From: Chthonomonas sp. | Lineage (GTDB): Bacteria > Armatimonadota > Fimbriimonadia > Fimbriimonadales > Fimbriimonadaceae | Length of the DNA: 64,000 nt | Direction of reading: 5' to 3' | NCBI GenBank assembly: GCA_016788425.1 | Contig: JAEURQ010000001.1 | Span: 248,001-312,000 of the forward strand | In this document: piece after piece, positions 27,637-31,943 of the stretch | Numbering within the stretch: the stretch's first letter is position 1 | How the letters are laid out: the number at the start of each line of letters is the position of its first letter | Translations under genes and position numbers: made by a program | Notes under the pieces: generated by a model | What the model was told of the DNA's origin: nothing | The model's input: the letters and a program-made list of their open reading frames with translations, nothing else | Databases searched by the model: none

Positions 27637-27648
27637 ACTCGAACGTTC

Positions 27649-28812
27649 ATGCCGCTCAAGCCCGCTTCCGCCCGCCGCCCCCTCTCCGCGGCCACCTTTT
27701 TGCGGCGCAATCTGCGGCGGACTTTTCCGGTGGCGGTCGTCATCACCGTGGCGGTCATGCTCATCGTCGGCATCGTCGCGTTGATGAACTCAATTCCGCT
27801 GTCGGTGCGCACGATCTAAAAGTATCTGGAGTTACAGACCGTCATCACGGCCAGGGTGAATCCGCTTGTCGGGCCGCAGATTCGCAGCGCGATTGAGGCC
27901 GAAACGCCGGTGCCGCTCGAACGGGTGATTACGGCCCGCGGAATTGAAAGCAAGATCAACAGCTTGGTCGGTGAATGGCCGTTCGCGGTGATCGCGATGG
28001 ACAAACCGGACCGCGAGTATTTCCGCCTCAAAATGCGGGGAGGCGGGATCAAGGGGCGCGACGTGGTGGACGGCATGCCCGAAGCGGTGATCAGCGACCC
28101 GGTGGCGCGCAGCCTCAAAAAGGGCCTTGGCGACAACCTGCTGCAGCCGTCGTGGGACGGACGCTTCTCGCCAAAACCGGTGAAAATCGTCGGCATTGTG
28201 CCGTCGGATGTGTTTTTCGCGTATGTCTCGCTCGACTATCATCGCGCCTACCACTCGCCGCCGATTGACCTCAATCTCTGCTTTACGAAGGACCCCGCGC
28301 GACAAAAAGAGTTTGATGCGTGGGCCCTGCAGCGCTTCACCACCATTGACGCAAAGGTGTTTTCGTACACGTATATCCTCGCGCAGAGCGATCAGATGTT
28401 CGAGATTCTCTATCGCATTCTCAACATCGTCATCTGTGTGCTGGTGGTCGTGATCACGTTCATGATGGCGCTGCTGATGAACATCCACCAGACGCAGCGC
28501 CTGCAGGAATATGCGTTGCTTCAGGCGCTCGGCTACACGAAGCAGCAACTCGTAACGCGCTCACTGCTGGAAATGTCGATCCTCATCGTCGGAGGCTGGG
28601 TCGCGGGTTGCTTTATGGCGTATGGCTTGCTCAGCGTCGTGAATGCCGTGCTCATGTATCCCCGCGCCTTCGCTTTGGACCTGCTCGATCGGCAGGCGTA
28701 CCTCTCGACTTTGCCGGTTCCGATTGCAATTCTTGCGACAGCATCCTATACAATTCTCCGGAATTTCCGTAAATTCGACCCCATCGGAATTCTGGAACGG
28801 AGGACGGCATGA
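27649..28812 (+). pseudogene. ABC exporter permease (FtsX/MacB type) with in-frame stop
   Basis: A frame of 388 codons from ATG 27649 to the stop at 28812 is broken only by TAA at 27817 (codon 57), directly after the first membrane segment (VAVVITVAVMLIVGIVALMN). Protein character continues in the same frame on both sides: a periplasmic domain, then three more hydrophobic segments (IVICVLVVVITFMMALLMN, and near 28570 and 28730), the layout of FtsX-like permeases of LolCDE and MacB exporters. Without readthrough, a restart at GTG 27856 would lack TM1. The ATP-binding gene follows with a 4-base overlap. Recent mutation, sequencing error or recoding are all possible. Confidence 0.75.
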
Positions 28813-29501
28813 TTCGGCTAGATCAGGCGAGTTTGGTGTACCGCGAGCAAGCCAAGGAGGTAGTCGCCTGCGCGCCGACGAGCCTGGAATTTTTGCCGGG
28901 ACAGTTCTACGGCATCCTCGGGCCGAGCGGCTCGGGCAAGTCGTCGCTCCTCTATCTTGCCAGCGGGCTCAAGGCGCCCAGTAGCGGCAACGTGACGTAC
29001 CGCGACCAACCGCTGGGCAAGCTGGACGACCTGGCCAGCGCGCAGCTTCGCCAACGCAGCTTCGGGTTTGTCTTCCAGTTTCCGTATCTGCTCGGCTACC
29101 TGAGCCTCCATGAAAACGTTTGCGCAGGCCGATCTGGGGCGGATTTTAGCGGGGAAGCCGCCCAATTGTTAAGCGAGCTTGGGCTCGCGGATAAGATGCA
29201 CCGATTCCCGCACGAGGTGAGCGGCGGCGAGCGTCAACGCACCTGCGTCGCGCGGGCTTTGCTGGGTCGGCCGGAGGTTATTTTCGCCGACGAGCCCACC
29301 GCCAGCCTCGACCACACGGCGGGCCACGCGGTAGTCGAGTTGCTGCAGCGACTGCGTGGCGAAGGCACCTTGATCATGGTCACGCACGACCCGACCATGA
29401 TCGACCAGGCCGATCACGTGATCGAGATTGTGGATGGCGAGGTCACCGGCCAGCGGTCGAGAAGCGCATCCGCAAGAGCGAGCGAATCTGAACCAGCGTG
29501 A
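28809..29501 (+). CDS. ABC transporter ATP-binding protein (LolD/MacB type)
   Basis: 230 residues. Walker A is GPSGSGKSS at residues 38-46, the signature is VSGGERQR near 140, Walker B VIFADEP near 158, and the switch region MVTHDP near 195. Together with the upstream permease it would form an exporter of the lipoprotein/macrolide/peptide type. The start overlaps the permease stop, so the two are one transcript. Its last 59 bases overlap the end of the convergent transporter gene; the tail TGQRSRSASARASESEPA is unlikely to be conserved. Confidence 0.93.
   Translation: MIRLDQASLVYREQAKEVVACAPTSLEFLPGQFYGILGPSGSGKSSLLYLASGLKAPSSGNVTYRDQPLGKLDDLASAQLRQRSFGFVFQFPYLLGYLSLHENVCAGRSGADFSGEAAQLLSELGLADKMHRFPHEVSGGERQRTCVARALLGRPEVIFADEPTASLDHTAGHAVVELLQRLRGEGTLIMVTHDPTMIDQADHVIEIVDGEVTGQRSRSASARASESEPA
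29112..29126 (-). repeat. Short word TGCGCAAACGTTTTC, copy 1
   Basis: Exact 15-base match to 37645-37659, both read on the minus strand; part of the TGCGCAARCG word family. Confidence 0.45.
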
Positions 29502-31830
29502 ACCCAACCAGGATGATGCCCATGATCCAGGCTGCCGCCGTGGCGTAGCCGAAGTTCAGAAACATGAACGCCTGACTCCAAATCTCGTAGCCGATGGTGT
29601 GGGTCGAGTACAGCGGGCCGCCACCGGTGAGCAACAACACGCTTTCCATGGATTTGAACCCGGCGACAAACACGCCGAGCAAGTTGATGAGCATGAGCGC
29701 GCGCAACCCAGGCAAGGTGATAAACCGAAGCTTATGCCGCCAGCTCGCGCCATCCAAATCGGCGGCTTCGTAGCGCTCCTCCGGGATGTTTTTGAGCGCG
29801 GCCAGATACAGCATCGAGCCGGGTCCGGCGGCGGCCCAGATTCCTGGGATGACGATGGCGAGCATGGCCCACTTCGGGTCGCCCAACCAATCCACCGGCC
29901 CGATGGTTTGGCCGGTCGCCCGGCCATAGAGATCGAAGAACGGACGGGTGAATATGTTCAAGATTCCCTTGTCAGTCTTATCGTAAAGTTGCCGCCAGAG
30001 CAATGCGACGACGACCGAGGAGGTCATGGCCGGGAGGTAGAACAGCGTGCGGAAGAACACCTTGAACCGAGGGATTTCGTTGAGCATCAACGCCAGGAAA
30101 ATCGGCACGAAGAAGCCGATCACAATCGTCAGCGCAACGTACAAGAAAGTGTTGCCCAGGCTTTTGTAGAACAGTGGTTGCGAGAACACCTGCACGAAGT
30201 TGTCCAGCCCCACCCAGCGAACGCCTTTCGCGATGCGATAGTCCTGAAACGCGATAAGCAACCCGCGCGCGATGGGATAGTACGCCCACAGCATGATGGT
30301 GCCGACCGCGGGCAATAGGCACCATGCCATGAACGCGCGAACCCGGCGAGGGCTGGTGCCGGCGGGAAGCTTCTCCACCCACTTGTCGCGGACCGGGCGC
30401 ACGCGGCGCGCCCCCCAAATGAATCCGCCGATCAGCGCGATGCTCAGCCCGATGAGAACTCCAAGCGCCACCGCGCGGCGGTGGGCGAGAACCTTCGGCT
30501 CGACGTATCCGAGGAGGACTTTGTCCATCTCCTGGGAGACTCCGGCGAGGATTTCGCGGCTCGGCGTGTTGGGTTCCAATCGAGCTCGATCGAGCGCCGA
30601 ATCCAGAACCCGATACACCTGTTGGCAGTTGCGGCCATAAGGCTCGGGGTGACCCGATTTAAACAGGTCTTCGCTCGCCTTGACATAGGCCGGATCGACC
30701 TGAGCGGCGAGCTCGGGATAGCCAAACTTCTTGAGCCAAACCGGGTTGATCAGGTTCGCCAGGCCCAGCTCGACGAAACGCTCGGTGTTGATGCGCGCGG
30801 CATGGTCGCCGGCGAAATAGCGAATGAATCGCCAACAGGCTTCGAGCTTGCGCGGATCCTTGATGCGGGCATTGATCGCCCACATTCCGGCGTTAATCTC
30901 GTTGGCGCGTCCGGCCGGACCGGCCGGAAGCGCGGCGACCCCCACCAGCGACGGCGAAAGATCGTTCATTGAGGCGACGACGACATCGTTGGTGTAGGCA
31001 AACCACATGCTGATTTTGCCGGTGCGAATGTCGCCGTTCAGGTCGGCGGTGACGGTCGCGGCGGGGCCGATCGTCTTGCCGTTGTGCTGCCACTTTTGGG
31101 TTGTGACCGTGCGGAAAAAATCGAGCGCCTGAGCGGCTTGTGGCGAATCAATGGCCGACTTCCAGCGGCCTTCTTCTGCCGGGACGACAACCTCGCCGCC
31201 GGCTTGCCAAAGGAAGTTCACCCAGAAATAACTGGGGCCGGCGAATCCGAAGCCAAATCGGCCCTGATCGGCCTGCACCAATCGCCGGCACACCTCGTTG
31301 AATTCTTCCCACGTGCGGGGCGGTCGGTTGGGGTCGAGGCCCGCCTGGGCGAAGTGGTCGCGCCGGTAATAGAGCCCTTGCGCCACTTGAAACCAGGGCA
31401 CGCCATAAAGCTTGCCATCGTAGCTGCGCAGAACCTCGAGAACCTTGGGGTTGGCGCGATCGAGAATCTCCGGGTTCTTCGCGACGAGGTCATCGAGCGG
31501 GCGGCAAAACCCTTGGTCAATGTAGTTGTAGTACTGCCGGAAGTTGACGTAGAACACGTCCGGCGCGTTGTCGCCGGCCATGGACATGAGGAACATGGAC
31601 TCGGCGCGGTCGCCCACCATTTCGAGGCCGCCTGCGTTCACCACTTCGATGTCGGGGTTCTTGGCGCGGAAATCGTCGAACACGGCGCGACGCGCTTGGG
31701 AGCGCGGATTCGTATCTTCTTTCGGCGGAATGCCCATGCTGGGTCCCGCCATCATGCGAACCTGAACGGGCTGGGCAACCGCGATTGCCGCCGCGAAACA
31801 AGCGGCAAGCCCCAAAAGCCAAGTTCGCAT
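29443..31830 (-). CDS. Fused sugar-binding protein and ABC permease
   Basis: 795 residues. After a signal peptide (MRTWLLGLAACFAAAIAVAQ) residues about 25-430 are a family 1 solute-binding protein (LYGVPWFQVAQGLYYRRDHF, then ACWRFIRYFAGDHAARINTE). A membrane helix (VLIGLSIALIGGFIWGA) leads into a MalF-type permease of about 300 residues with six hydrophobic segments and the EAA loop (EERYEAADLDGASWRHKLRF) near 690. Such parts are normally separate proteins. Sugar uptake is the likely role. No second permease or MalK-like ATPase lies beside it. The ATG at 31830 is preferred over a GTG 18 bases upstream. Confidence 0.85.
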   Translation of the reverse strand: MRTWLLGLAACFAAAIAVAQPVQVRMMAGPSMGIPPKEDTNPRSQARRAVFDDFRAKNPDIEVVNAGGLEMVGDRAESMFLMSMAGDNAPDVFYVNFRQYYNYIDQGFCRPLDDLVAKNPEILDRANPKVLEVLRSYDGKLYGVPWFQVAQGLYYRRDHFAQAGLDPNRPPRTWEEFNEVCRRLVQADQGRFGFGFAGPSYFWVNFLWQAGGEVVVPAEEGRWKSAIDSPQAAQALDFFRTVTTQKWQHNGKTIGPAATVTADLNGDIRTGKISMWFAYTNDVVVASMNDLSPSLVGVAALPAGPAGRANEINAGMWAINARIKDPRKLEACWRFIRYFAGDHAARINTERFVELGLANLINPVWLKKFGYPELAAQVDPAYVKASEDLFKSGHPEPYGRNCQQVYRVLDSALDRARLEPNTPSREILAGVSQEMDKVLLGYVEPKVLAHRRAVALGVLIGLSIALIGGFIWGARRVRPVRDKWVEKLPAGTSPRRVRAFMAWCLLPAVGTIMLWAYYPIARGLLIAFQDYRIAKGVRWVGLDNFVQVFSQPLFYKSLGNTFLYVALTIVIGFFVPIFLALMLNEIPRFKVFFRTLFYLPAMTSSVVVALLWRQLYDKTDKGILNIFTRPFFDLYGRATGQTIGPVDWLGDPKWAMLAIVIPGIWAAAGPGSMLYLAALKNIPEERYEAADLDGASWRHKLRFITLPGLRALMLINLLGVFVAGFKSMESVLLLTGGGPLYSTHTIGYEIWSQAFMFLNFGYATAAAWIMGIILVGFTLVQIRSLLRMRFSTAGR

Positions 31831-31943
31831 AGGGCTATATTGTCGCACTTTCCCGGGACCGGGTAAACCTAGTAATTATACGGTGGTCATTCCCCAGACC
31901 AGGAAACTAGAATGGTATACATACGACAACTGGTTTGACGATT

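Follow-up and report, generated by a model that had tools for sequence, protein, structure and literature searches.

A solute-binding protein fused to a MalF-type permease in Armatimonadota, with candidate partners encoded at unlinked loci

Architecture of the fusion and its locus

The window, the whole stretch of 64,000 nucleotides that was analysed, comes from a 2.67 Mb genome that is 99.9% complete. On its minus strand, one frame of 795 codons (P0001; 29443..31830) joins a solute-binding protein (SBP) to a MalF-type permease, running from an ATG at 31830 to a stop that ends at 29443. An in-frame GTG at 31848 is an alternative start, from which the product would have 801 aa. The features below lie on the same strand. 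The predicted signal peptide (residues 1-19; 31774..31830) corresponds to the hydrophobic stretch MRTWLLGLAACFAAAIAVA in the hydropathy profile. The solute-binding domain follows, at about residues 20-440 (30511..31773), and contains a match to SBP_bac_1 (PF01547) at residues 46-342 (E 2.1e-31; 110.5 bits against a gathering cut-off of 26). An extra membrane anchor helix (residues 453-471; 30418..30474), with a hydropathy value of 2.49, leads into a basic stretch rich in Arg and Lys and then into a linker of some 25 residues. The C-terminal part, residues ~495-795 (29446..30348), is a six-helix permease domain of the MalF type, with a match to BPD_transp_1 (PF00528) at residues 573-780 (E 4.5e-13; 49.8 bits against a gathering cut-off of 26.4). 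It carries the EAA coupling loop EAADLDGASWRHKLRFITLP at residues 688-707 (29710..29769). Residues E688, A689, A690, G694 and P707 of this loop are invariant across 23 aligned orthologues, in all of which the binding domain is largely kept too.

An AlphaFold2 model built from the 23 aligned orthologues has a mean pLDDT of 71.7 and a pTM of 0.58. The binding domain is mostly at pLDDT 75-94 and the permease is only moderately confident; the model has a long anchor helix at residues 445-486 and six permease helix groups. Foldseek searches with the model support the assignment of the binding domain, with the sugar-binding proteins GacH and MalE3 (E 2e-17 to 7e-17) and a cycloisomalto-oligosaccharide binder as top matches. 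Pfam, hydropathy and AlphaFold2 thus agree with the sequence-only reading of the locus, which had placed a signal peptide, a family 1 binding protein, a membrane helix and a six-helix permease with an EAA loop in a single 795-residue frame: both domains score above their gathering cut-offs, and the hydropathy profile has an N-terminal hydrophobic stretch, the helix at 453-471 and then the permease helices.

By sequence, the binding half is closest to MalE3 and the permease half to AlgM1 (E 2e-21); the other best matches of the permease half are UgpA, MalF and further permeases of sugar importers. Since the fusion scores well below the curated cut-offs of both the MalF equivalog NF008232 (46.8 bits against 392) and the UgpA equivalog NF007852 (83.7 bits against 335), the name MalF should not be used for it.

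The 3' end of the fusion gene overlaps by 59 nt a convergent frame for a 230-aa ATPase (28809-29501, plus strand). This ATPase has no MalK regulatory domain and is preceded by an FtsX-type permease, so it is part of an exporter-type system; as a partner of the fusion it is rejected on account of its missing MalK domain and its FtsX/MacB-type neighbour. The earlier statement that no partner permease or ATPase gene adjoins the fusion is therefore right in substance. The FtsX/MacB-type permease frame itself (27646-28812, plus strand) is broken by an in-frame stop at 27817-27819, between SIPLSVRTI and KYLELQ, which cuts the first membrane helix off the remainder; the ATPase downstream of it is intact.

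Upstream of the fusion gene lies recA in divergent orientation, an arrangement found in the window and in 12 of 24 named loci, and in Fimbriimonadia the fusion gene has no sugar-gene neighbours. This orphan position beside recA would suit a relic, or a sensor that binds a solute without transporting it. Such a role is extremely unlikely, given that the full frame is kept and that the orthologues show no variation in the EAA loop and in permease residues.

Conservation of the fusion

The fusion is not peculiar to this genome. About 65 close relatives have it as a single uninterrupted frame, mostly of 769-930 aa, with 52-69% identity. In the phylum, 124 of 291 genomes match it at E <= 1e-90, usually along the greater part of the protein. 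More than 100 Armatimonadota genomes have it intact in a single frame, which settles whether relatives keep it. Because the ~65 related genomes share one uninterrupted frame, chance and assembly error are excluded; the conserved full-length frames likewise rule out a frameshift or a chimera. Named orthologues come from Fimbriimonadaceae, from 'Chthonomonas sp.' MAGs and from other Armatimonadetes. The combination of SBP_bac_1 and BPD_transp_1 is as such present as a Pfam architecture in public databases. In the named loci from outside Armatimonadota, within a scan of close relatives, binding protein and permease are separate genes. A literature search, mostly outside subscription journals, turned up no account of an SBP-MalF fusion from Armatimonadota, nor of a MalE-MalF fusion combined with a MalG carrying a large insert; in the passages covered, the Fimbriimonas ginsengisoli genome paper (PMC4072686) counts ABC genes and does not mention fusions.

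The genome has 16 permease domains and three further SBP-MalF fusions, of 803-811 aa, each immediately followed by a MalG of its own. One of these, followed by a 589-aa MalG, is found at L017 5772-9955 (G000:C1:141771-145954); this MalG has additional hydrophobic helices at its N-terminus, and its periplasmic insert is a different one. In a tree, the family of the window fusion and the three other fusions stand apart (2 changes), and the supported branches are compatible with a single origin. Among all SBP-MalF fusions of the genome, only that of the window is without an adjoining MalG. Only one other permease of the MalF/MalG type is unpaired, a 519-aa MalG encoded at C3:68396-69955.

The candidate MalG and ATPase partners

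This orphan MalG, encoded on a separate contig from the fusion, has a periplasmic insert of about 277 aa and is here called insert-MalG together with its orthologues. Two loci of Armatimonadota outside Fimbriimonadia, L084 and L085, link it to the fusion. At both, a fusion orthologous to that of the window (39-40% identity) is directly followed by a gene for a MalG of 631-676 aa, and in this genome the best match to those two MalGs is the C3 protein (55-57% identity over ~230 residues, E ~1e-73), the other MalGs reaching at most 36% identity with E values of 1e-28 or worse.

The insert lies between helices 1 and 2 and has 260-303 residues in Fimbriimonadia and 350-426 elsewhere; in this genome, an ordinary MalG (L019) has 276 residues in total. 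Several insert-MalGs match a fragment of GH42 (PF02449, positions ~144-217) in up to three stretches, with E values down to 4.7e-20, and the C3 protein matches it weakly (E 0.006). In L144, L145, L148, L150, L161, L163 and L084 the insert holds one to several of these GH42 beta-galactosidase-fragment modules. As the matched fragment is short, catalysis by the insert is unlikely; one might guess that the insert docks or spaces the tethered binding domain. An AlphaFold2 model of the L085 MalG has a pLDDT of 35 and is uninformative.

The fusion and insert-MalG occur together. Among 61 relatives, 35 have both and 24 have neither, with one genome having only the fusion (73% complete) and one only insert-MalG (68% complete). 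These two exceptions (G054 and G034) are both below 90% completeness, and in relatives that are at least 90% complete the counts for both, fusion only, MalG only and neither are 29, 0, 0 and 21. At the level of the phylum, the genomes with only one of the genes (G151, G162, G146 and G147) are also below 90% completeness, except for G147 at 92%. Where insert-MalG has no strong fusion match in its genome, a diverged fusion frame of 880-1093 aa mostly adjoins it. G138 seems to carry two paralogous systems, with a fusion on C14 and an adjacent fusion and insert-MalG on C26.

The Fisher value for this co-occurrence, 1e-14, ignores kinship, and trait changes were therefore counted on a tree of MalK from 52 genomes (G050 dropped). 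On this tree the fusion and insert-MalG each change seven times, always together; on well-supported branches four of four pairs agree (p 0.125), too few for significance alone. Genera g10, g11, g18 and g19 each mix genomes that have both genes with genomes that have neither. Since the genomes without the pair mostly retain MalK and other MalF genes, the link between the fusion and insert-MalG is specific. These losses also bear on the idea that the fusion borrows a MalG belonging to another sugar importer of the genome, the orphan insert-MalG serving something else. The three further fusions, each with its MalG, mean that other MalGs are available, but these sit beside fusions of their own, and genomes that lose the window fusion keep their other MalFs and MalK and lose insert-MalG. 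Borrowing is thus quite improbable.

Outside Fimbriimonadia, most of the deeper-branching Armatimonadota families have the two genes as direct neighbours. If a fusion and an insert-MalG at most 1.2 kb apart are taken as adjacent, 31 of the 34 scored fusions in families f13-f42 have insert-MalG beside them, and two of the other three are within 1.4 kb. In f12 the pair is adjacent in three of six. A pooled value of 33 out of 37 mixes part of f12 with f13-f42, and the family-by-family counts are preferred. In f10 and f11 the genes are split, as they are in the Fimbriimonadia families f1, f3 and f5, in which the pair proper is never adjacent and the genes are 8-640 kb apart on one contig or on different contigs; in G002 an adjacent but diverged pair takes its place. 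Adjacency in most of f13-f42 and separation in f1, f3 and f5 are most simply explained if adjacency is the ancestral state. Because the genes are scattered yet gained and lost together, annotation of a single locus would label the fusion an orphan.

These observations also weigh on whether insert-MalG is needed at all. MalF, UgpA and AlgM1, the permeases that the fusion resembles, work as heterodimers. Together with the joint gain and loss of insert-MalG and the orthologues encoded with a MalG in other Armatimonadota families, this resemblance makes it very unlikely that the fusion forms a homodimer which, with an ATPase, would dispense with MalG and carry two tethered binding domains per transporter. 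In favour of a homodimer are the fact that MalG adjoins the fusion nowhere in Fimbriimonadia and the precedent of OpuA, which is homodimeric with covalently linked binding domains (PMC11065425).

For a heterodimer of the fusion and insert-MalG, the candidate ATPase is the sole OB_MalK protein of the genome, encoded at a third locus (C2:806505-807644) that is unlinked to both the fusion and the C3 MalG. It passes the NCBIfam cut-off for UgpC (440.6 against 432), and its gene is directly upstream of two frames read, from their sequences, as scpA and scpB. One such ATPase per genome is also usual among the relatives, 55 of 61 having one strong MalK match each; three genomes without a strong match (G039, G042 and G046) are missing the fusion and insert-MalG too. 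MsmX and MsmK are each established as an unlinked ATPase that serves several sugar importers (PMC7658222). By this precedent, the single candidate would be shared among the sugar importers of the genome. The sequence-only reading had held the subunit partners of the fusion to be unknown; it stands in that none adjoins, and the C3 MalG and the C2 ATPase, as candidates, now largely supply the answer.

Proposed transporter and known systems

Most probably, the locus encodes part of a CUT1-type importer that has its binding protein tethered on the MalF side and is completed by insert-MalG and MalK, its operon having been dispersed in Fimbriimonadia. Within a carbohydrate importer resembling MalFGK2 (CUT1, type I), the fusion would supply one subunit. 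Its signal peptide would export the binding domain, which a short segment and the anchor helix would keep at the periplasmic face, while the linker would lie in the cytosol and be followed by the six-helix permease with its EAA loop directed toward the ATPase. This permease would pair with insert-MalG from C3:68396-69955, and a MalK dimer from C2:806505-807644 would power the transporter. Each transporter would carry one binding domain, no more and no fewer, and draw on no freely diffusing pool, and the tether can reasonably be expected to keep the substrate beside the channel, as had been suggested earlier. The genes would formerly have been neighbours and would have been dispersed later, in the Fimbriimonadia lineage.

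In other families, the loci of adjacent pairs often hold sugar genes, among them those for GH106, GH20 with LacI, GH94, a trehalase-like hydrolase, ROK and SIS proteins. Because of these sugar genes, the substrate is likely to be a sugar or an oligosaccharide. In two genomes of family f35 (L148 2778-5603 and L149 10621-13362) a GH106 alpha-L-rhamnosidase-like gene is divergent to the fusion and insert-MalG, and this neighbour is a possible hint at the substrate.

A more tentative and rather doubtful extension is that Armatimonadota have a class of importers in which both membrane subunits contribute sizeable periplasmic portions. On the MalF side this would be the binding protein, on the MalG side a 260-425-residue, partly GH42-like insert, and together the two could form a fixed docking chamber in place of a free binding protein. 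In many importers of this kind, free binding protein is present in excess; a sugar importer with exactly one tethered domain would offer a natural way to ask what purpose that pool serves. The proposed system would also be a case of a multi-subunit transporter whose genes are scattered and still gained and lost together. For annotation, the fusion counts as more than a free-standing binding protein and as less than a whole transporter.

The proposed transporter resembles the CUT1 importers MalEFGK2 and UgpBAEC in its family 1 binding domain, its MalF-type permease with an EAA loop, and its MalG-type partner and MalK-type ATPase with an OB domain, both of the latter being candidates from unlinked genes. 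It differs from them in that an extra helix joins the binding protein covalently to the MalF-type subunit, the MalG has a periplasmic insert of 260-425 residues and the subunit genes are dispersed. Covalent attachment of the binding domain to the permease, seen here as a single frame in over 100 genomes, is shared with OpuA and GlnPQ. In OpuA the connection consists of an 11-residue linker plus an anchor in the membrane (PMC11065425). The best matches of the permease are AlgM1, UgpA and MalF, and kinship to the betaine and amino-acid permeases of the OpuA and GlnPQ families was not found among them. OpuA, which takes glycine betaine, is homodimeric and has two binding domains, whereas a heterodimer with one sugar-type domain is predicted here; GlnPQ takes amino acids, whereas the binding domain here belongs to a sugar-binding family. 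With the MsmX and MsmK systems (PMC7658222) the genome has in common several sugar importers without an ATPase gene and one MalK-type ATPase encoded elsewhere. Unlike in those systems, the MalG partner of the fusion is unlinked as well, and the ATPase is one that the importers would presumably share.
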